Assembly (NCBI GenBank): GCA_023144005.1
Contig: JAGLGN010000014.1
Location: 1-64,000 of the forward strand
Reading direction: 5' to 3'
Origin: a bacterium
Lineage (GTDB): Bacteria; AUK180
DNA: 64,000 nt
This document shows positions 7,872 to 64,000 of this stretch, piece after piece. A program made the position numbers and the translations under genes. Below the pieces are notes generated by a model, which was not told the origin of the DNA, made no database searches, and saw nothing but the letters and a program-made list of their open reading frames with translations. Position 1 is the stretch's first letter. The number at the start of each line of letters is the position of its first letter.

Positions 7872-10169
7872 ATGGAAAGCGTAGATAAAAGAGCGCTCAT
7901 ACAAAGAGCGCAAACCTATTATCAGCAAGGACGTTTAGATCTTGCTACAAATGAATTCTTAAAGATCGTAAGTATTGACCCCTACGATATTGTAGCATTA
8001 AATACTTTGGGAGATATCTACTCAAGACAATCTGACGGCCAACAGGCGTTTACCATGTATCAAAGGGTAGCCAAGATATACATTGAGAAGGGTGAATACA
8101 CCAAGGCTATCGGCGTTTATAAAAAGATCACTCATATCGACGATAAAAATGCGGTTGCCTTCTATGAATTAGGCAAACTTTATGAGAATGAGGGGATGGT
8201 CAACGAAGCGCTTGCGTGTTATATGAAGGCGCTGGATAATCTGCCGGCTACTCAGGATGAGATCATCACCAATATTTATTCCCGTATGGCCCAGTTGGAT
8301 CCCGAGAATATTGATCTCCATTTGAATCTCGTAACGAATTTCGTATCTCAAGGAAAGAACACCGAAGCCAAAGATGAGCTGCTAGCTGTCATCAAAGGGT
8401 ATCTTGCCAAGGATGAGATCAAGAAAGCCGAGGAGCAAGTAAAAATGCTCACGGAATTGGCGGGTGAAGAAGATGTGCTTTTCGCAAAGGGGCTGATCGC
8501 CCAGAAAAGTGAAGAATTCAGCGGAGCGGAGATGCTATTTAAGAAAGTGATCGGGATCAATAAATACTTTGTTGATGCCTATTATCAGCTGGGGGTTACC
8601 CGCGTTCTTGCGGGGCGGGACCAACAGGCCATGGTACCTTTTCAGCAATGTCTTAAATACAAACCGGATTTTATTCCTGTTTTGGAAATACTCGGATCCA
8701 ATTATGAGAAGCAGGGCAAGGCTGAAATGGCGGTCGAGAAGTATGAGAGTGCCGTAAAGAGCGCTCTTGATAAATCACTTTTCAACGAGGCGAAAAAATT
8801 GCTGACAAAGATCATCATGCTTGACCCGAATAATATTCCCGCCTTGGAAAGATTGAAATCATTGGGAGAAGAAGTACCCGACGCGCCGGCAGCTCCGATC
8901 TCGGCACAAATAGAATCCGAGGTCAGGGAAGCCGCTATGGTAGATGACACCAAAAGCGTGGCGGCTCTTAATATGGATATCCCTGCAGTTAGCATTGATT
9001 TCACTACCAAGCGCAAACTCGCGGACCTCCTGGATGAGGCAAATAAATTTCAGGTCGGCGGACTCGATGACAAGGCGGAAGAGAATTTCAGAAAAGTGTT
9101 AGCGATCGACCCGAATAGTGAAACGGCATTGAACGCTCTGGCTGAAAGTCTTATGATGATGGGAAACAACAACGATGCCGTAGGATTTTACAAAAGCCTG
9201 ATCAAGGTGTTTTACAATAGAGGGGAATTTGAGGATGCCTTAAAAATATATACCAGAGCTTTGCAATTAGCGCCCGCTGACAAGGAATTACCTCTTTTCA
9301 AAGATGAGATCGAAAAGCGGAAAAGCGTCATAGCTCAGATGGAATCGGGCGATTTTGATAATATCGATGTTTCTGAACCGGACGAGCCTGTACCTTCTAT
9401 GGACGAGATGCCTGTCGAGGCACCACCGGCAGAGCCCGTAGCGGCGGCACCCGAACAGACAACAGAAAGCGCACCGGCACCCGAACAGGCCGCTGCAAGT
9501 CAAACGGTCAACGCAGAGGAAATGAAAGGCGACGATGAAGAGGATTTCGTTGACAATTTTGCCGATAAGGTAGGAGAGGTCATCGGCGATGATCTGCAGG
9601 GACATTACGACATGGGTATCGCATTCTATCAGATGCAGCTCTTCTCTAAGGCCATTTATGAGTTTCAGGTAGCCTCCAAGGAGCCGGATCTTTTTCTACC
9701 GGCCTGTGAACAGATCTCTCAGTGCTTTCTCGATCAGGGGCTTCCCGAGGCTACACTTAAATGGATCGACAAGGCCTTTGTCATCAGTAATATAGAAGAA
9801 ACCGCAATGCTGAGCTTAAAATTTATTCAGGCGACCGCATATGAAATGCTGGGGGATAAAAATCAGGCATTCAAGATCTTCCTGGAAATATATCAGGATA
9901 ACGCTAAATTCCACAATGTGGGAAAAATTATAAAGAGAATGAAAAAGGAGTTAAATCTTGGCACTCAGAGTACAATGGCAGCGGAGATGAAGGGTACGGA
10001 TAACATTATGCAATCCTTGAACAATGTTACCGGCGACGCGGAAAAAGGAAAAGTTGCGCCCGACACACAGCCGCCACCGGCACAACCAGCATCACAACCA
10101 GCGCCGGCGGAAAAGAAAGAGGAAGGCAACGATCCTCCTCCAGCAAACCCCAAGATCAGCTTCCTTTAG
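7872..10169 (+). CDS. Large TPR-repeat protein
   Basis: 765 residues of tetratricopeptide repeats in at least two blocks (about 10-330 and 375-490, with a further block near 570-700), separated and ended by Pro/Ala/Glu-rich linkers (about 500-555 and 715-760). No signal peptide is seen, so a cytoplasmic scaffold is likely. TPR solenoids bind partner proteins; the ExeA-like ATPase encoded 8 nt downstream is the obvious candidate partner. It is the first gene of an operon running through ATPase, tRNA-Gly, PHP protein, TPR/NTF2-like protein and MoxR. The transcript appears leaderless. Confidence 0.8.
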   Translation: MESVDKRALIQRAQTYYQQGRLDLATNEFLKIVSIDPYDIVALNTLGDIYSRQSDGQQAFTMYQRVAKIYIEKGEYTKAIGVYKKITHIDDKNAVAFYELGKLYENEGMVNEALACYMKALDNLPATQDEIITNIYSRMAQLDPENIDLHLNLVTNFVSQGKNTEAKDELLAVIKGYLAKDEIKKAEEQVKMLTELAGEEDVLFAKGLIAQKSEEFSGAEMLFKKVIGINKYFVDAYYQLGVTRVLAGRDQQAMVPFQQCLKYKPDFIPVLEILGSNYEKQGKAEMAVEKYESAVKSALDKSLFNEAKKLLTKIIMLDPNNIPALERLKSLGEEVPDAPAAPISAQIESEVREAAMVDDTKSVAALNMDIPAVSIDFTTKRKLADLLDEANKFQVGGLDDKAEENFRKVLAIDPNSETALNALAESLMMMGNNNDAVGFYKSLIKVFYNRGEFEDALKIYTRALQLAPADKELPLFKDEIEKRKSVIAQMESGDFDNIDVSEPDEPVPSMDEMPVEAPPAEPVAAAPEQTTESAPAPEQAAASQTVNAEEMKGDDEEDFVDNFADKVGEVIGDDLQGHYDMGIAFYQMQLFSKAIYEFQVASKEPDLFLPACEQISQCFLDQGLPEATLKWIDKAFVISNIEETAMLSLKFIQATAYEMLGDKNQAFKIFLEIYQDNAKFHNVGKIIKRMKKELNLGTQSTMAAEMKGTDNIMQSLNNVTGDAEKGKVAPDTQPPPAQPASQPAPAEKKEEGNDPPPANPKISFL

Positions 10170-51409: not shown

Positions 51410-51438
51410 AATATATCAGAATTCCCCTATTTTTTCAA
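51410..51438 (-). promoter_or_regulatory. Leaderless promoter of the O-antigen ligase gene
   Basis: Minus strand TTGAAA (51433-51438), 17-bp spacer, TATATT (51410-51415); ATG 5 nt after the -10. Overlaps the end of the upstream coding region. Confidence 0.7.
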
Positions 51439-53640
51439 ACCGAGACGGCGATGAAGGCGAGTGATCCGGTGGGTATATCCGGTATAATACTCACATTTAG
51501 GGGCCAGATCCCTGTTTAACAGACCCGGGTCTTTAACGATCAGCACAGGTATTGATCTTATAGCGGTGCGCATATGTCCAATCTCTGTAAAGATAGATGC
51601 CAGCGAATTGAATCTCTCTTCATCAAAATCTATTGCTATATCCGAAGCTACGCCAAAGAATCCCAATTGCGGGGTGGTGAAGAAGCGGATATGTTCAAAT
51701 ACATGATCGATCGTTGCGGGAACAATATATTGTTCATCTGACCAAAAAAGAAGAACGCCATTATCGGACAGGGCAGTTCGGAGCAATTGGAAAAACTCCA
51801 AAGAGTACAGATTGTTTGAATATGCGGTCGTGGTTCTCAATGGGTCCATCATTATCAGATCGTATTTTTTTGTATTTTCATATAAGAATCTTCTGCCGTC
51901 ACCGACAATATAATTGATCTTATTTTGATCGAATAAGAATTCAGTCGATTTTGTATTTCGAAGATTCTCCAACAGTGAAGGGTTTAATTCCACGACATCT
52001 ATTTTTTTTGTATCATCACAAAATACGGCAACTTCAACAAAAGTGCCCGTGCCCATGCCGATAATTAATACATTTTCAGGAACAGGCGTAGAGGAAAGGC
52101 CATAAGCGGCCTCCAGTTGAAATTCCACTCCGGGACGAAAGCCATGCCCCAAACCGTTTAGCACATTTTTCACTTTTTCCCCGTTGCTTCCCGTCACCAC
52201 AACCCCTTCTGTGCTCTCCGAGATCAGAATGGTTGCCATCCCGCTCAACGATCCTTTGTGAATACTTTTATATAGCTGTGTTTTATTCGGAAATATTATG
52301 AATACCATGATCAAAAAAGCAACCCATAAGAAGGTCATGCGAAGAGATCTTTTTCTGAGCAGCAGCGGGATTAAAAATAACACCGCACCGATTCCGAGGA
52401 TTAAAAATGTAATAGAGGTCCCGAAAACATTCAATAAGACAAAACCCGTAATAAGCGCGCCAAGAATATTACCAAGCGTAGAAAAGGAATATACAATACC
52501 GGATGAGTATCCCCTTGAGACACCCTTTTCGTGAAACAGTGTGGTGATCAATGGGAATGAGGCCCCCATGAGAAAGGCGGGTGGAAATACGAAAATGATC
52601 GGCCAGAGAAAAAGATCAATAGCATACCAGATATTTGACCATTTCAGATATAACGGTGGATGCAATAAGTATTGAAAGGAATTCTGTGTAAATGCGGTGA
52701 TTACTCCCCATTTATTCAAATAGTAAAATCCCGTTATAGAAAAGATTACATAGATTCCAATTAGGCCCTGTAAAAGAAAATATGTATTGCGATCAGACCG
52801 AAGACGGGACGATCTAAGGGTGTAATACCCGCCTATACCCAGAGCTGATATAAAAACAAAGAGAACTGTAGAGAATACATACGGAGAGCCCTTCAATATT
52901 ACCGAGAGAAATCTGATATATACCATTTCCAGCCCTAAGGAAATAAATCCGGAAAGAGTTACCAGAAGCAGGATGGAAACAGAGTGAGATGCTTTTTGTT
53001 TATATACTGAATTTGATCGAATGCCCGTTTGCCGTGGTAGATACCGTAGCGCCAGAAGCGCGGAAATGACGTTAATTGATGATGCGCTTATAAGACCAAA
53101 ATTCATATCCATATAGGAGAGTATCCAGTATGATGAAAGGAGGATGCCGAATCCGCTTCCGATCGTATTGAGAAAGTAAAATCTTGAGATCGAATTTTGA
53201 AATGAACTCTCTTTTATCGCACTCACCCCAAAGGGAAATGCTGCGCCAATAAGTATCGTTGGGATTGACAAAAACAAGAAGATAAATACACCACCGTAAA
53301 GGGGGGTTGAAGATGATATAAGAGCTCCAAGTGATGGCAAAAAAGAAAGCGTCACAAGAACAAAGACAGAAAGAAATAGCTGGGCCAAGATAAATCCCCG
53401 CTTACCTGAAACCCCTTTTTTAGAAAAATACGCTCCGAGCAGTGAGCCAGCGCCTAATCCGAACATATAAGAAGCAAGTACAATTGAAGTAGAGCCGAAT
53501 GAGACTCCATAATAGGCAGAGAAGATCCGCTGCCAGACGATCTGATAAATGAGTGCTGCCGTACCATAGAGCAAAATCGAAAGGTGAGAGAGAAACACGG
53601 TTTTTTTTTTCGGTTTCTGGTGCTTATTCACTTCAGTCAC
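51427..53640 (-). CDS. Membrane-fused spermidine synthase-like protein
   Basis: 737 residues: N-terminal ~480 residues with about 13-14 membrane helices (MFS-like), then a Rossmann domain of the spermidine-synthase fold: NVLIIGMGTGTFVEVA (motif I), DVVELNPSLL, YIVGDGRRFL, YDLIMMDPLR. Such fusions occur in many bacteria; true polyamine synthesis is often doubtful, and export of polyamine-like products or methyl transfer has been suggested. Within a polysaccharide locus it may modify an envelope component. Its stop region overlaps the ligase promoter; its start overlaps wbqC by 8 bp. Confidence 0.82.
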   Translation of the reverse strand: MTEVNKHQKPKKKTVFLSHLSILLYGTAALIYQIVWQRIFSAYYGVSFGSTSIVLASYMFGLGAGSLLGAYFSKKGVSGKRGFILAQLFLSVFVLVTLSFLPSLGALISSSTPLYGGVFIFLFLSIPTILIGAAFPFGVSAIKESSFQNSISRFYFLNTIGSGFGILLSSYWILSYMDMNFGLISASSINVISALLALRYLPRQTGIRSNSVYKQKASHSVSILLLVTLSGFISLGLEMVYIRFLSVILKGSPYVFSTVLFVFISALGIGGYYTLRSSRLRSDRNTYFLLQGLIGIYVIFSITGFYYLNKWGVITAFTQNSFQYLLHPPLYLKWSNIWYAIDLFLWPIIFVFPPAFLMGASFPLITTLFHEKGVSRGYSSGIVYSFSTLGNILGALITGFVLLNVFGTSITFLILGIGAVLFLIPLLLRKRSLRMTFLWVAFLIMVFIIFPNKTQLYKSIHKGSLSGMATILISESTEGVVVTGSNGEKVKNVLNGLGHGFRPGVEFQLEAAYGLSSTPVPENVLIIGMGTGTFVEVAVFCDDTKKIDVVELNPSLLENLRNTKSTEFLFDQNKINYIVGDGRRFLYENTKKYDLIMMDPLRTTTAYSNNLYSLEFFQLLRTALSDNGVLLFWSDEQYIVPATIDHVFEHIRFFTTPQLGFFGVASDIAIDFDEERFNSLASIFTEIGHMRTAIRSIPVLIVKDPGLLNRDLAPKCEYYTGYTHRITRLHRRLGLKK

Positions 53641-56237: not shown

Positions 56238-57389
56238 TCAGTTCTTATCGGCATTGATCGGTTCCGCCAGGATCTCTTTTGCCAATATCTCACCTACCTT
56301 ATGTTGACCGGCTAAATTCAGATGATAATCTACTGGATCGTAAAGGTCTTCCCCTGTACTTTCATAAGAGCTCCTCAAAACAGGAACGAAATTAAGGAAG
56401 TCGATTTGCTTATGCTGCAATACCTTAATGAATTCTGCTACGATAAGATCATCGATCTTAAGATCCTGCGGCTCCAGGTCCGGAACGGATTTACAAAAAG
56501 AAATATAATCCTGATTTGCCCCTTGAACCTGCATCATCGTGGGCAATATCAGGACTTTCAGTAAAATATTTTTTTGTCTGCATAGAGAAATGAGGTCATC
56601 TAATACCGCGGCATATTTATCAAACCATCTCGCCTGTTCAAGAGTTCTAAGCCATCTCACCTGCCCGATGTCCTGCCCAAGCATGGGGTTTGAAGAAAAA
56701 GTATTTTTCGGAACAAGGCGAAAATATATCATGGCAACCAGATTTGAATGCTCAACAAGCCACGGAAACGCTCTCCTTTTGGCCGGTAATATTATGGCTT
56801 TGCCATCTATAACTTCCACGCTCGGATAGTGATCATGAAATCCGATAAGATCAACAAGATCATTGCCCGTATAAAAAGTAAGCAGCGCCATATCCGGCTT
56901 TATAATATCACTGTTCTCTTTCAGAAAAAGGTACATCTGTTGGATAGACCAGCTCAATGTGCCGGAATTGATGACATTGTACGGGGAATCATCATGCTGG
57001 CGATTCAAAATACTTTCGGAAACATTAGGGAAAGTGTCATTTACTTTGCAATTGCCGTCCACGTGTGAATCGCCCAATACCAGGATGCGATATTCATTTT
57101 CCGCCTTTTCTCTAATTACATTTTCCTCTCTCAAGCCCTGGGCATTCGTCCGGTATATATAAAACCCTTCATCATATCGTGCGGTCTTTACATGAAGACG
57201 CGCGAATTTACTGTGCTTCATCCCATACTCTTTATCTGAAACGACACCCAGTTGATTCACATGGAAGAATTTACCATCATATTTCATTATATATGATGTG
57301 CGGAATAATGTTTCAAGTACAAGAAATAGTAATATCAGGAAACTCAGGATCCGAATGGTAATAAAAAGGTTTCTTATAAATTTTTCCAC
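56238..57389 (-). CDS. Membrane-anchored SGNH hydrolase-like protein
   Basis: 383 residues: one membrane segment (about 8-28), then an SGNH-type domain with RILVLGDSHVDGN (Ser nucleophile block), TFYTGNDLVDL (block III-like Asn) and DYHLNLAGQHKVG (catalytic DxxxN/LxxxGH region). Probably acts on acylated glycans in the periplasm like AlgX/PatB-type proteins. GTG start overlaps the comEC stop (TGAGTG), so it is translated downstream of the DNA-uptake cluster although its function fits the polysaccharide locus. Confidence 0.75.
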   Translation of the reverse strand: MEKFIRNLFITIRILSFLILLFLVLETLFRTSYIMKYDGKFFHVNQLGVVSDKEYGMKHSKFARLHVKTARYDEGFYIYRTNAQGLREENVIREKAENEYRILVLGDSHVDGNCKVNDTFPNVSESILNRQHDDSPYNVINSGTLSWSIQQMYLFLKENSDIIKPDMALLTFYTGNDLVDLIGFHDHYPSVEVIDGKAIILPAKRRAFPWLVEHSNLVAMIYFRLVPKNTFSSNPMLGQDIGQVRWLRTLEQARWFDKYAAVLDDLISLCRQKNILLKVLILPTMMQVQGANQDYISFCKSVPDLEPQDLKIDDLIVAEFIKVLQHKQIDFLNFVPVLRSSYESTGEDLYDPVDYHLNLAGQHKVGEILAKEILAEPINADKN

Positions 57390-60290
57390 TCAGAATTCAT
57401 GTTGAAGATCCGCGATCTCCATATCGCCAGAGGAATTGCCGGAGGTAAATCTCAGTAATTTGCCGTCACATATCTTATATCTTACATAACCCACTGAGAG
57501 ATCATAGAAGTTGGTGCCGGCCTTATCCTTCAGATAACTAAAATCCTTCTGGAATTGAGCTAACTCCTTGCCCTTGTTGAAATAATCTATATGAAAAAGC
57601 ATGTCCATGGGCAATGCGAGATTCAGCATATCCTTGAGTTTGTAGTTATACAGGAAGCGTGTGGGCATAAGGACCACATCGACCTTATCGAAATACTGCT
57701 TGTATGACATCAGTTTATCCACTTCCCCCCTGTCCAGATCAGCGGCTAATAAAAACTGTTTTCTTGAGATCTCAATACCCTTTTTCTTCAAGATATAGTC
57801 CGCTTTGAGTACCATATTATCCTGAAAATAGTCCTCTTTGTCGCTGCTTTCCGGGTAGATAGCATATATCTCAAACACATATTCACTATTCCCCACCTTC
57901 TTACTCTCTCTTAGAATATAATCACCCGCCTTTACCACGACATGGGGTATTTTGCTGGACATTAGGGTGTTGCTTACCTTCTGACACGTTTCATATCTGC
58001 TTTTTACCCAATAAGCCTGGCCTCTTTCCAGTAAATACTCATTATCAGTAGATTTCAAGAAATCTTCATAGCTAGATGCGGATGCTTTTTGCACATCTGT
58101 GGGAATATAGACCTTCCCCACGGGGTATTCCCTCAGTATTGTGGTAACCGCCGAGTTATTATCCTGAGAATAATCCGTCAGGATCAGATCGTCTATACGG
58201 TTGATACCGTAAGACATCAAAATGCTCATGACCACACGGTCGGCCTCGTCCCACTCCCTTCTGTTATAGAGAGAATGCTTACCTGCATTTATCAGCACAT
58301 TTCTTCCCGAAGGCGTTTTGATGAAAACGACATTGCCCTTTGAAAGGGAAAAGAAGGTTATATCAACTTCATTATCCCTTTTTGTGGGTATCAGCAGAAG
58401 TATGGAGCCCAGCAGGACAATAGCGATTATGATCGCGGGCAGAAACTTAAATATACGCGCCCTCTTATCATGTTTCTGTTTGAATACCGTCAATTTATAT
58501 TTATAGTCAAGCCACTTACTTTTGATATACGGAAGATTGATAATGATAAGCAGCGCCACAAAATAGAATATCAGCCCGCCGAAGGTGAACTTCTTCACAT
58601 ACGGATATGGGAAAGTGGTCGAAAAGAAATGCGCGGACTGTATAAAGAGCTTCAACAGCAGATAATTAGCGGCATTGATGAACAGTCCCATATATATCCC
58701 TACAACGGGTATCAGAGACAGAATTGCCGCGATCATCCCCAATTGGACATTGATGCCGATGAGGGGTATGGCGATGTAATTGGCGTACATACCCGCAATT
58801 GGATATCTGCCAAAATAATATGCGGAAAGCGGGATCATCATTCCCAGCTGTATCGCAAATTGTGCCGATATGAAGGATATCAGCCAAGGCGGCATCTTTC
58901 TGTAGGATGGAGCGGCAAGCTGCTTTTTTTCCTCAAATTTATTGGATAAATACAAAAACACCCCGGAAGCGGCAAAAAATCCCCACAGAAACAGTGAATT
59001 AAAGAAATAGCTCTTGAAGATGATGATAAGCGCGGTGAAGGAGGCGAAAACAAAGCAAGCCGCCCAAAAGGTATATCCGATCAGATACTTCTTGAAAATA
59101 TCATCCAGAAACGGCGTGATAAGGACAAGTGATAGCACCGCCCCAAACGATAGAGTAAAGGATGCTTCTCTCAATAGAAGCGGGTTCACAAATAATATCA
59201 TAAGAGCGGCAACGGAAATACCCACCTCGATCGAGGTTCGCAGCCCCTTGCCGGAAAGAACCCATGCCATCAGCACGGCGCTATTCATTATTACGGCCCG
59301 CAAAGTGGATGGCCGTCCGCCGGTGATTATCGCGAATATCACTAAAAAGAGTATCGTAATAATTGCATAAACTCTTCTGGGAACCCCTATCAGTGAGAAT
59401 ATCCCGACAAAGAATATCATAAGGATCGTAACATGAAGCCCCGACACGGCCAGTACATGATTCACACCCGCCCTTTTGAACTCATCCTTTATCTGATATC
59501 GGGCATCAGGCAGGAAGATCCCGTCCATGCCGTATCTCAACCCCAGGGTAATACCGCCTAAAAATGCCGACTCCGGGTATTTCACCGTTCTTCGAATGGT
59601 TTTCAGGAATTTCTGTTTGATACCCAATGAGAAGGCGACAAAAGGATTCTTCTTCGTCAGCTCATCGGGGGTGATGCGCGACGCATCCTTGAAATACGCA
59701 GTATAATATACTCCGGTGCTTTCCAGAAATTTTCTATAATCAAAGCCGCCCGGATTCGTTGCTTTCTGCGGCCTCTTCAAGTCCGTTTCAAAAGTGATAT
59801 AGTGCCCGTATGAGAGAAATTCCGGGAATTTCCCCTTCTTGAATGAATAATTAAGAAGTATCTTGCCCTTTTTCACTTCTTTCGAACGGGCGCCGTTAAC
59901 TGAGATCTTCAGGGGCTTGACATATACCCGCATCCGATTTTCAAAATACTCGGGTTCTCTGTACACATAACCTTCGACCGTTGCGGATATTTTGTCTTCT
60001 CCTCCGGTAACGGTCAGTATATGCCCTTTTCTATCGATATTCAGAGCATTGTGTGTAAAAGCCAATCCCAACACAAAGGGCAAAAGGTAAAAGGCCATCA
60101 GCATAGGTATCTTCTTGATATACCCCCAGCGCTTATAAGAATAAAACCCCACTGCGATAGCCGCGAGAAGAACGACGGCAGAAAGGATGAAAAGAAAAAA
60201 CGGAGAGGCCAGAGGGAAGACACCGAAACTGATGAGTATGCCGAGGACAAAGAACAATGTAAAGAGGTAGAGTTTATTTTCCCAATACAT
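57390..60290 (-). CDS. comEC: ComEC/Rec2-like DNA channel with degenerate metallo-beta-lactamase domain
   Basis: 966 residues: N-terminal DUF4131-like region, central competence domain with the ComEC signature GRPSTLRAVIMNSAVLMAW and LREASFTLSFGAVLSLV, ten or so membrane helices, then a C-terminal metallo-beta-lactamase-like domain (~675-966). In active ComEC this last domain carries an HxHxDH-type metal site; here the corresponding stretch reads DDLILTDYSQDNNSAV, lacking the histidines. ComEC moves single-stranded DNA across the inner membrane during natural transformation. The ATG overlaps the stop of the 49-aa gene (TAATG). Confidence 0.92.
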   Translation of the reverse strand: MYWENKLYLFTLFFVLGILISFGVFPLASPFFLFILSAVVLLAAIAVGFYSYKRWGYIKKIPMLMAFYLLPFVLGLAFTHNALNIDRKGHILTVTGGEDKISATVEGYVYREPEYFENRMRVYVKPLKISVNGARSKEVKKGKILLNYSFKKGKFPEFLSYGHYITFETDLKRPQKATNPGGFDYRKFLESTGVYYTAYFKDASRITPDELTKKNPFVAFSLGIKQKFLKTIRRTVKYPESAFLGGITLGLRYGMDGIFLPDARYQIKDEFKRAGVNHVLAVSGLHVTILMIFFVGIFSLIGVPRRVYAIITILFLVIFAIITGGRPSTLRAVIMNSAVLMAWVLSGKGLRTSIEVGISVAALMILFVNPLLLREASFTLSFGAVLSLVLITPFLDDIFKKYLIGYTFWAACFVFASFTALIIIFKSYFFNSLFLWGFFAASGVFLYLSNKFEEKKQLAAPSYRKMPPWLISFISAQFAIQLGMMIPLSAYYFGRYPIAGMYANYIAIPLIGINVQLGMIAAILSLIPVVGIYMGLFINAANYLLLKLFIQSAHFFSTTFPYPYVKKFTFGGLIFYFVALLIIINLPYIKSKWLDYKYKLTVFKQKHDKRARIFKFLPAIIIAIVLLGSILLLIPTKRDNEVDITFFSLSKGNVVFIKTPSGRNVLINAGKHSLYNRREWDEADRVVMSILMSYGINRIDDLILTDYSQDNNSAVTTILREYPVGKVYIPTDVQKASASSYEDFLKSTDNEYLLERGQAYWVKSRYETCQKVSNTLMSSKIPHVVVKAGDYILRESKKVGNSEYVFEIYAIYPESSDKEDYFQDNMVLKADYILKKKGIEISRKQFLLAADLDRGEVDKLMSYKQYFDKVDVVLMPTRFLYNYKLKDMLNLALPMDMLFHIDYFNKGKELAQFQKDFSYLKDKAGTNFYDLSVGYVRYKICDGKLLRFTSGNSSGDMEIADLQHEF

Positions 60291-60439
60291 TATTTTTCTT
60301 CCAAAAACCCGTAATACGATTCATTGGACCTGAGATTTCCCTCGATCGTATAATTCTTATCAAAGGCCAGAACCAGGATCGCGGCAATCGCAATGATAAT
60401 TATTCCTATTAAAATAAAGGTCTTCTTTCCTTTTTTCAT
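60290..60439 (-). CDS. Small single-pass membrane protein (49 aa)
   Basis: Found by reading between the two large genes: ATG at 60437-60439, stop TAA at 60290-60292. Basic N-terminus (MKKGKK), one membrane helix (7-25, rich in Ile/Ala/Leu), then a short polar tail (DKNYTIEGNLRSNESYYGF). GGAG lies 6 nt before the ATG. The start overlaps the stop of the upstream gene and its own stop overlaps the comEC start, both as TAATG, so it is translationally coupled on both sides. Function unknown; an accessory of ComEC or the barrel is likely from context. Confidence 0.75.
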   Translation of the reverse strand: MKKGKKTFILIGIIIIAIAAILVLAFDKNYTIEGNLRSNESYYGFLEEK

Positions 60440-62430
60440 TAACTTCTCCAGTCAAGATAGAATTTGAAAGCCCTCTGCGGAACCGTATTATCAGCCCTTG
60501 CCGAATTGTCCTGAATATAATACCTTCTTTTGTACCCTATTTTCAGCTTCAGATTCTTTCTCCAGAGGTTTTTGCTGTAATCAACAGACCACTCCCGGTA
60601 TTCCTCTGAGGTGGATGAGTCCGACTTCCTGTAAATATTATTGTCCGTGGATTTAAATGAGAACAGGAATGTACCCAGAGCGGGTTTCCAGTTCGCCTTC
60701 AGCTGATAGGATGCGTTGGCCTTTCTCTGAGGCAGTGAATGTTCCATATAGGTATTGAAGCGGTAAACGCCTGTCAGGCGTAATTTCTCGGATAGATTGT
60801 AATTAAAAGTCACATAAGTCCTGGTGCTTTTGTCCGATTCGGAATAATCCGTAATATATGAATCATTCAAGTCCCTTGCCAGATCGTTATCTTTGTACCG
60901 CTGCGTCACCGCCATATCAACGAGCGGTGTTATAGGATATTGAAATTTTACCGAGCCGTCGAAATTGGTCTGAAGGGTTGAATAATATCTCCAGATATCC
61001 GCTTTGGGAGTGATCTCTAATTTCCCCAATTTTAAAAGCGCATCGAATTTAATGCCCCTTTCGTTCTGGGCGGAAAGCTCCGCAGGAGATTCATATGTAG
61101 CGAATGTATATGAGTAGGGATTTTCAAATTCCCTGTGGAAATCCCTGTAAATAAAATTGATCCGCGCGGTTTTCTTTTTCATGGTCATCTTCAATAAGAA
61201 GCCGTGAGCGCCGGATTCCAATTGCCCGAATTCCGCCTGAATAGCCGATTTTTTAAAAGGAGTCCACCGCATATTCAATCCCCATACCCATGCATCGAAC
61301 ATGTCTTCAGAGTAATTATTCGGCTTGTAGAGATCAGAGGCATAGATCTCCTTATTATGATAAACGGTCATTCCGATAAAATTGTCCTCTCCGCCGATTC
61401 GCATATGTCCGCCGAAAATGGTCTTGTTGACATAATTCGGAATGGAAAGAGCGATCGTGTCTTCGTCGAAATCGGTCTCTGAATACGCCGATTCATCCGC
61501 GCTGAAATCAGCCGAACTGACCAGAAGATGCGAATACTGATAGAGCTTGTCCTGTATCTGTGACGCGAAGATGAAAATCTCCGCCGGTCCCAGCACCGTT
61601 CGCATGCCGGCACCCAGGAGATTCAGATTAAAATCGGAAGTAACATCACTTGAACGGTCTCCTTTGAAGCCGTAGAGATTTTTGTTATCGGATTCATTAA
61701 AGACCACGCCAAGGCCGAAGCCCGCCATGTAATTTCCCGTGATCAATTGGAAGTTCTTTGTATTCCAATTTATAAATACCTTAGGCAGGGGCCATATTGT
61801 TTTCTTCGGGTCAACTATCACTTCGCCGGGCTGAAGGAAGATCTCGCCGTTTTCATCATAGGTAACAGGCCCGTCATATTCCTCAAAGCTGTATGTAGCG
61901 TATCTGCGTTCCTGAAGAATTCCTATATCCAATACCTTTCCGAGGCGGAAGCGGTACTTGAACTGTACATAGGGCGTTTCTTCCGATTTGGTCGTGGAAG
62001 AGACCTCGTCCCGGAATTTAAAGTTGAGGTCCGTTTTCCTTTTCAATACCTTCTTACCCTTGACCTTCTTTATCTTGACTGGAGGAATGATACGCATAAA
62101 TCCCTCAACAAAACTGAAGTCGGTACGCCCAAGGATCTTTTTGAGCGGCTTGTCATCTTTAAATGGCCGGTTCTTGATGATCTCATTAGCGATCTCAAGG
62201 TTTACCTTGGGAAGCCGTAACAGCTCGCTCTTGGGAGCGCTATTGACCTCTATCGGATTTGAGAAGAGTTCCCAAAGCATAATATACTGCTCTTGATCGA
62301 TATCTCCGGACTCGTAGAGATCCGCGATCTCGTCTTCCGTAGATATGGGTATCGAAAGATCATAATCCTGAGCAAATGCAAAAGAGGCCAAAAACAAAAC
62401 GATCAGAAATAGTATTCTACCTTTCATCAT
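60439..62430 (-). CDS. Helix-hairpin-helix protein fused to an outer-membrane beta-barrel
   Basis: 663 residues: signal peptide (MMKGRILFLIVLFLASFAFA), then a ComEA-like helix-hairpin-helix region (~55-110: PIEVNSAPKSELLRLPKVN...ANEIIKNRPF...KKILGRTDFSFVEGFMRII), a basic linker (KIKKVKGKKVLKRK at ~117-132) and a C-terminal beta-barrel of ~500 residues with alternating aromatic strands, ending AFKFYLDWRS. HHH domains of this type bind double-stranded DNA in ComEA. Overlaps the upstream barrel/ComEA gene by 4 bp (ATGA). Confidence 0.82.
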   Translation of the reverse strand: MMKGRILFLIVLFLASFAFAQDYDLSIPISTEDEIADLYESGDIDQEQYIMLWELFSNPIEVNSAPKSELLRLPKVNLEIANEIIKNRPFKDDKPLKKILGRTDFSFVEGFMRIIPPVKIKKVKGKKVLKRKTDLNFKFRDEVSSTTKSEETPYVQFKYRFRLGKVLDIGILQERRYATYSFEEYDGPVTYDENGEIFLQPGEVIVDPKKTIWPLPKVFINWNTKNFQLITGNYMAGFGLGVVFNESDNKNLYGFKGDRSSDVTSDFNLNLLGAGMRTVLGPAEIFIFASQIQDKLYQYSHLLVSSADFSADESAYSETDFDEDTIALSIPNYVNKTIFGGHMRIGGEDNFIGMTVYHNKEIYASDLYKPNNYSEDMFDAWVWGLNMRWTPFKKSAIQAEFGQLESGAHGFLLKMTMKKKTARINFIYRDFHREFENPYSYTFATYESPAELSAQNERGIKFDALLKLGKLEITPKADIWRYYSTLQTNFDGSVKFQYPITPLVDMAVTQRYKDNDLARDLNDSYITDYSESDKSTRTYVTFNYNLSEKLRLTGVYRFNTYMEHSLPQRKANASYQLKANWKPALGTFLFSFKSTDNNIYRKSDSSTSEEYREWSVDYSKNLWRKNLKLKIGYKRRYYIQDNSARADNTVPQRAFKFYLDWRS

Positions 62431-63905
62431 TCACCTCCCTGTCCATTGTCAACAGCTGGATCGTATTCTCCCGTTTTTATCATATTTCTCATATTCTCAA
62501 AGGTCTTGGGGCCTATTCTGGGAACATTCATAATATCCTCTATGTTCTTAAATCCGCCGTTTTGCTTCCTGTAGGAAAGAATGTTCGCCGCTGTCTTCAC
62601 TCCTACGCGCGGAAGTTTCTGCAGCTCCGCACTGTCCGCGGAGTTGATATCTATTAGCGGTCCGCTGTAAGAGGTCTTCGAGGCGGTGGAAGTGGACGAG
62701 GAACTGCGTGACGGTACAATTTGAGACGATGACTCATATTTACTGCCAACGGTAATATAGGACCGTATTTTTTCAACGGTCTTAGCGCCGATCCTGGAGA
62801 CATTCTGCAGGTCTTCCACTCTTCTGAACGGCCCGTTCACCTTCCGGTATTCCACTATACGCTCTGCCGTCTTACTGCCGATACCCGGGATCGCGGATAG
62901 CTCCTCCGCATTTGCGAGGTTAATATTTATCCTGCCGTTGATCACCGAGAGTTCGGGTTTGGATTCTTTGTTTCCGAGTCCAAAGGCAAAGGTATGTGTG
63001 GCGCCCAGCTCCGGATGTACCTTCAAGGCGTATGAAACCGCCATACCGCCACCGTAAATACCGAGACCGGCAGAATAGGAAAGACGCTCCGAGTGAAGAT
63101 ATTCAATGCCGCCGAATAGAGCAAAGTTATCCGTCATATCATACTTGATGCCAAAATGATATTCGGAATAGAGGTCCCGTTTAGCCGCGAAATTTTCCAG
63201 ATATGCGTCATAGTCGGCAAAATCACCGACCGCCTCTTCTATCTCCGCTTCCTCGGCGTCGGTATAGCTCCCGAGTCCGTAAGTATGTTTCAGAAACGAT
63301 GCGGGAATATTTGCGATCAAATTGAAATAAATATTCAATTGTACAAATGGCGTATATGATACCCCTATGCCGACATCCCTCGCCATGTATTCCTGGCCGA
63401 TATACGGCGCCGAAACATTTCTGAATCTTGCTCCGAAATAAAGTTCCTGATTTACAAAAAGCACCATTCCCATATCCAGGGCAAGTGTGGATGCCGAACC
63501 GATCTCATCGATAACGACACTCATATATTTCCCTTTGAAGCCAAGTGCGAAATTAGAGCCCACATTAAAGGCGCCGGCGAATTGTATCTGCTGCTCCGCA
63601 TACAGCCATGAGCCGAATTTTATAAGGTTCAGGCCCATTGTCATGGAACCGAAGCGCTTAATATAATTTGCTGAGGTATTTGCGAGCTCATCCATGCCGT
63701 AGAGCCGGGATGTGGTAAAATTCAAATGGACATTCTCCAGATAGGCCAGCATGGCGGGATTATTGTATATCGCCTCCGGGCCCATAAGGACCAGATTTGC
63801 TCCGCCGGTAGCGAGGTTCAGGGGCATATTCCCCTCAAATTCAAAGGCAGTCCATCCATTGGCGGCCAGAATGATCGCGCAAACTACTATTATTATTTTT
63901 TTCAT
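62427..63905 (-). CDS. PorV-like beta-barrel fused to two ComEA-type HHH domains
   Basis: 492 residues: signal peptide (MKKIIIVVCAIILAANGWTA); a PorV/UPF0164-like barrel (~20-310) with NLATGGANLVLMGPEAIYNNPA; first ComEA domain (~320-385) with ININLANAEELSAIPGIGSK and VSRIGAKTVEKI; a Ser/Thr-rich linker (~388-415); second ComEA domain (~420-480) with IDINSADSAELQKLPRVGVK and VPRIGPKTFENM. ComEA binds incoming DNA in the periplasm in transformable bacteria. AGGGGG precedes the ATG. First gene of the cluster leading to comEC; a TTGAGA/17 bp/TTATAA promoter may lie at about 63947-63975. Confidence 0.88.
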   Translation of the reverse strand: MKKIIIVVCAIILAANGWTAFEFEGNMPLNLATGGANLVLMGPEAIYNNPAMLAYLENVHLNFTTSRLYGMDELANTSANYIKRFGSMTMGLNLIKFGSWLYAEQQIQFAGAFNVGSNFALGFKGKYMSVVIDEIGSASTLALDMGMVLFVNQELYFGARFRNVSAPYIGQEYMARDVGIGVSYTPFVQLNIYFNLIANIPASFLKHTYGLGSYTDAEEAEIEEAVGDFADYDAYLENFAAKRDLYSEYHFGIKYDMTDNFALFGGIEYLHSERLSYSAGLGIYGGGMAVSYALKVHPELGATHTFAFGLGNKESKPELSVINGRININLANAEELSAIPGIGSKTAERIVEYRKVNGPFRRVEDLQNVSRIGAKTVEKIRSYITVGSKYESSSQIVPSRSSSSTSTASKTSYSGPLIDINSADSAELQKLPRVGVKTAANILSYRKQNGGFKNIEDIMNVPRIGPKTFENMRNMIKTGEYDPAVDNGQGGE

Positions 63906-64000
63906 GGCAGCCCCCTACATCCTTTTCCCAATGGCAACGACTTCTTTCTTATAAATAGATTTCGTTTCATTTCTCAATTCGATGTATAGAATATATACAC

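Follow-up and report, generated by a model that had tools for sequence, protein, structure and literature searches.

ComEA domains fused to a PorV/FadL-type barrel in a conserved comEC operon of Candidatus Mcinerneyibacteriota

The window analysed here, 64,000 nucleotides of contig C6, belongs to a 2.67 Mb genome that is 96% complete and that we refer to as Candidatus Mcinerneyibacteriota, a phylum name taken from a relative of the same class. Four ORFs on its minus strand follow one another at 63905-62427 (492 aa), 62430-60439 (663 aa), 60439-60290 (49 aa) and 60290-57390 (966 aa). They are joined by an ATGA junction (4 bp overlap) and two TAATG junctions (1 bp each), as a first-pass annotation of the sequence had described. 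We call their products PorV-HHH, a PorV/FadL-type barrel whose C-terminal part holds two ComEA (HHH) domains; HHH-barrel, an N-terminal ComEA-like domain followed by a strand-rich, probably barrel, region; the 49-aa peptide; and ComEC. The operon reaches upstream past the coordinates of that annotation, with gaps of a few bases, through a gene for a lamin-tail-domain (LTD) protein of 1020 aa, whose 3' end (63915-64000, minus strand) is the part within the window, a gene for a PorQ-like barrel of 294 aa and one for another LTD protein (1174 aa), which extends up to contig position 71396. The upstream LTD proteins bear C-terminal FlgD-like domains, and the barrel encoded with them is matched by PorQ/PorV models. 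At the other end, a 383-aa gene with a GTG start (window positions 56238-57389) begins one base past the comEC stop; by inspection its product has a GDSH motif resembling SGNH hydrolases, with no match in Pfam, and the gene found after comEC varies among relatives. Elsewhere in the window we noted an AbiEii-type nucleotidyltransferase gene (type IV toxin-antitoxin) at 532-1933, which overlaps a 207-aa gene, and at 51427-53640 a gene for a 737-aa protein in which a spermine-synthase domain is joined to an MFS-like membrane part.

PorV-HHH (62427-63905, minus strand) was assigned from Pfam and NCBIfam matches, AlphaFold models and comparison with PDB structures. AlphaFold models of four orthologues place 14 strands in the stretch from residue 60 to residue 310, and residues 25-313 (62967-63833) superimpose on FadL with a Z score of 29.6 and an rmsd of 2.3, and on PorV with a Z score of 28.1. 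Across the PorV/FadL barrels the fold agrees with Z scores of 27-30 and rmsd values of 2.3-3.4 (Z 28-30 over residues 25-313 for PorV, PorQ and FadL barrels), the difference being that PorV-HHH adds the C-terminal ComEA domains. In FadL-type barrels the C terminus is on the periplasmic side, and the ComEA domains of PorV-HHH would therefore be expected to hang in the periplasm. These domains give two HHH_3 matches (1.9e-46) and a match to the ComEA repeat TIGR00426 (1.5e-36). The first occupies residues 323-387 (62745-62939) and the second residues 417-478 (62472-62657), and each keeps both DNA-binding hairpins, PGIG and SRIG in the first and PRVG and PRIG in the second. Residues 415-479 match Geobacillus ComEA (8dss) with a Z score of 12.7, an rmsd of 1.0 and 37% identity, so that fold and hairpins are alike in the two proteins. 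Known ComEA proteins are either free in the periplasm (Vibrio/Neisseria) or anchored in the cytoplasmic membrane (Bacillus/Geobacillus) (PMC9747964), whereas PorV-HHH bears two copies on a barrel of the outer-membrane type. PorV-HHH would thus work like ComEA, yet it is no ordinary ComEA. These data bear out the first-pass description of a PorV-like barrel carrying two ComEA domains, tethered in this way in the same operon as ComEC.

The second protein, HHH-barrel (60439-62430, minus strand), gave a less clear picture. Its N-terminal domain (residues 57-115; 62086-62262) has one HHH_3 match slightly below the cut-off (25.9 bits against 27) and has lost the glycine of the first hairpin, so that it lacks the pair of DNA-binding hairpins characteristic of ComEA. 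This glycine is absent in 37/37 members of the HHH-barrel family, not all of them independent, and the HHH domains of these 37 members are net acidic in sum. By comparison, HHH domains attached to PorV-type barrels keep it in all 13 cases. Because of this difference the DNA-binding reading fits the first protein and not the second, and the earlier proposal that both barrels carry DNA-binding domains has to be given up for HHH-barrel; judged by its motifs, PorV-HHH alone of the two would be expected to bind DNA. Residues 155-662 (60445-61968) are strand-rich, with about 22 strands, in a low-confidence AlphaFold model (mean pLDDT 56) in which the barrel is not closed, and comparison with the PDB returned only a loose resemblance to general outer-membrane barrels with large rmsd values. 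The earlier description of an HHH domain fused to a barrel of about 500 residues therefore stands as far as an HHH-like domain and a strand-rich region are concerned, but the HHH is degenerate and the predicted barrel, although likely, is not closed in the model. Structure prediction accordingly upheld the first barrel as a FadL/PorV-type fold and left the second at low pLDDT.

Between HHH-barrel and comEC lies the gene for a predicted single-pass membrane peptide of 49 aa (60290-60439, minus strand). A matching peptide with a common tail is encoded at the same place in four relatives (G001, G002, G005 and G006), which makes five genomes in all, and dN is lower than a saturated dS. A chance ORF was rejected on these grounds, and by its sequence conservation the peptide is a real gene. 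The last protein (57390-60290, minus strand) is ComEC, with Pfam Competence (2e-38) and DUF4131 (2.9e-24) domains and an MBL-like C-terminal part without HxHxDH; this metal motif is replaced in 6/6 ComEC sequences of the phylum, which thus lack an intact nuclease motif. An intact MBL nuclease motif is present in many ComECs, though not in all. ComECs whose MBL domain is inactive or missing have been described (PMC12455585, PMC6299819), and in one such organism, with an inactive-MBL ComEC, EndA degrades the strand (PMC12455585). Our ComEC resembles that protein in having the Competence and DUF4131 domains and in missing the metal-binding MBL motif; in place of EndA, a secreted MBL protein with HHH domains encoded elsewhere in the genome (see below) is a candidate substitute.

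We examined conservation in seven Candidatus Mcinerneyibacteriota genomes, the homologous loci coming from MAGs. As far as contigs reach, four relatives share this gene order, a check that the first-pass annotation had proposed, and this rules out an orphan operon of one genome. The whole seven-gene order, including the upstream LTD and PorQ-like genes, is kept in G002, and the part from PorV-HHH to comEC in G006; the locus is cut at its 5' end by the contig in G001 and divided between two contigs in G005. In G004 one contig ends in an LTD gene and another begins inside comEC. G003, a draft genome of the same genus, is the one case that has neither ComEC nor the ComEC-linked HHH-barrel; it encodes, at another locus, a protein akin to those of the LTD genes, and it keeps a second HHH-barrel paralogue. 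In the genome under study that paralogue (872 aa) is found on contig C13 (L111:7164-10642), preceded by PorV-like and LTD genes and followed by one for a barrel-like protein of 424 aa. The HHH-barrels linked to ComEC form a group of their own (100/100), from which the C13 paralogue is separate. DprA was detected in each of the seven genomes, though weakly in G006, and, since these include the ComEC-less G003, it is uninformative as a correlate of the operon.

Beyond the phylum, the HHH-barrel profile identified relatives in many families; the libraries we searched gave no name for this protein family. Of the 18 loci picked by this profile alone (loci partly chosen for having PorV were left out of the count), 5 have a PorV-like gene directly upstream and 7 have one no more than a few genes away; these come from 4 of the 12 families, and the same PorV model matched none of 191 background ORFs. 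LTD proteins are also frequent neighbours, and short HHH (ComEA-type) genes adjoin the HHH-barrel loci in G289, G152 and G100. A further fusion occurs in G100 (L054:10469-12403): within a gene cluster coding for several HHH proteins, a PorV-type barrel is joined to two OB folds and one HHH domain. We saw linkage to ComEC in this phylum alone, except in G214 (L106:5890-14522), where LTD, PorV and HHH-barrel genes and a gene for a 397-aa protein are followed two genes further by comEC; the ComEC of G214 retains most of the MBL motif. The HHH-barrel family, which extends to many other families and often has PorV and LTD genes alongside, represents an uncharacterised outer-membrane module. Our literature searches found no paper combining 'lamin tail domain' and 'PorV' and no description of ComEA-barrel fusions.

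The first-pass annotation also suggested an alternative to the secretin route, and a check of the genome for secretin and pilus genes weakened it. Three secretin genes match the PilQ model, below its cut-off, and pilin, PilM, PilN, PilO, PilC and several T2SSE-family ATPases are encoded, so that the gene set of type IV pilus-dependent competence (secretin, pilin, PilM/N/O/C and motor ATPases) is present, unlinked to the operon. The secretin route is therefore available, and another passage through the outer membrane is possible and not required. On contig C25 (L013:5164-6015, 9044-9895) two near-identical 283-aa ORFs adjoin minor-pseudopilin and secretin genes; by inspection only, they resemble small REP-type transposases. 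Contig C24 (L110:7214-12587) encodes a membrane-anchored ComEA-like protein (357 aa), a UvrD-like helicase and the secreted MBL protein mentioned above, which begins with what looks like a signal peptide and combines an MBL part whose HPDADH motif is intact with four HHH domains. A homologue of this locus is also present in the ComEC-less G003, where the MBL-HHH gene is cut by the contig end.

The operon is a variant of the ComEA-ComEC system in which the fusion to an outer-membrane barrel is what is new. We consider it somewhat better than an even chance (about 55%) that it is an outer-membrane-anchored ComEA module working with ComEC in DNA uptake. This reading draws support from the coupled genes ending in comEC, their conserved order, the PorV/FadL fold with its ComEA match and intact hairpins, the joint absence in G003, the presence of PilQ-like secretins and pilus genes, and the occurrence together of PorV, HHH-barrel and ComEA-type genes in other families, including the PorV-OB-HHH fusion of G100. 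It is weakened by the missing DNA-binding hairpins of HHH-barrel, by the separate membrane-anchored ComEA-like protein, by the confinement of ComEC linkage to the phylum (bar G214), by the fact that joint absence was seen in one draft genome and by the presence of DprA in that same genome. From these observations we infer that the products of the operon would be partners in DNA uptake. PorV-HHH would sit in the outer membrane with its two ComEA domains hanging into the periplasm, where they would bind incoming DNA and keep it from sliding out again, in the manner of a ComEA ratchet on a tether. HHH-barrel would be its outer-membrane partner, with the degenerate HHH probably docking protein rather than DNA, and the 49-aa peptide probably links or stabilises ComEC. 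DNA would most likely still enter the periplasm via a type IV pilus secretin, and ComEC would carry one strand inward; with the nuclease motif of ComEC itself degenerate, removal of the other strand would fall to another nuclease. The conserved arrangement suggests that incoming DNA is gripped at the outer membrane and not by a protein floating freely.

An unlikely reading, though the best placed of the alternatives, is that the cluster sorts or displays surface proteins, with the PorV/PorQ-like barrels acting on both LTD proteins in a type IX-like manner and comEC a mere neighbour. The FlgD-like C-terminal domains of the LTD proteins, the PorQ/PorV matches of the neighbouring barrel and the adjacency of LTD and PorV genes in several other families are in agreement with it, but it leaves the ComEA domains and the joint absence in G003 unexplained. 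Moreover SprA (PF14349) was detected in 39/145 genomes searched and in none of the seven of the phylum, where a diverged SprA could be missed; this argues against ordinary type IX secretion, which we rejected as an explanation.

We regard it as improbable that the barrels themselves provide a secretin-independent passage for DNA through the outer membrane, as the first-pass annotation suggested. FadL/PorV-type barrels are narrow, which speaks against such a passage, as do the PilQ-like secretins and pilus genes and the failure of the model to resolve the second barrel. In its favour, two barrel-type proteins share the operon with ComEC, and Riemerella anatipestifer depends for transformation on an HHH protein and on a predicted barrel of the outer membrane, in a study that reports no pilus genes among the hits (PMC8459023). 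That system also has ComEC, but its HHH protein and barrel, both essential, are encoded by separate genes, unlike the fusions here, and its barrel has the carboxypeptidase regulatory-like domain that TonB-dependent receptors typically carry (PMC8459023). Equally improbable, in our estimate, is a complete pilus- and secretin-independent importer, in which LTD proteins would capture surface DNA, HHH-barrel and PorV would mediate its crossing, the tethered ComEA domains would act as ratchet and the peptide would couple the complex to ComEC; if true, many bacterial families would possess, in their LTD-PorV-HHH-barrel cluster, a machine for nucleic acids at the outer membrane that has gone unrecognised. 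Least probable of all is that LTD proteins, ComEA domains and the secreted MBL-HHH protein make up a set that degrades DNA, for the use of extracellular DNA as food or for surface-DNA handling other than transformation, since, although the MBL-HHH protein has an intact motif and LTD and HHH domains are discussed for a halophile DNase (PMC4486849), the operon contains the ComEC channel and the C24 locus is separable from it, being present in G003.

Moving DNA across the outer membrane, or holding it there, is the least understood step of transformation. An outer-membrane-anchored ComEA module bears on this step, as a ComEA joined to a barrel would keep the ratchet in place at that membrane, and the conserved operon names candidate partners for it. 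The analysis also brings to light a widespread family of HHH-barrel proteins, whose genes often adjoin those of PorV and LTD proteins.
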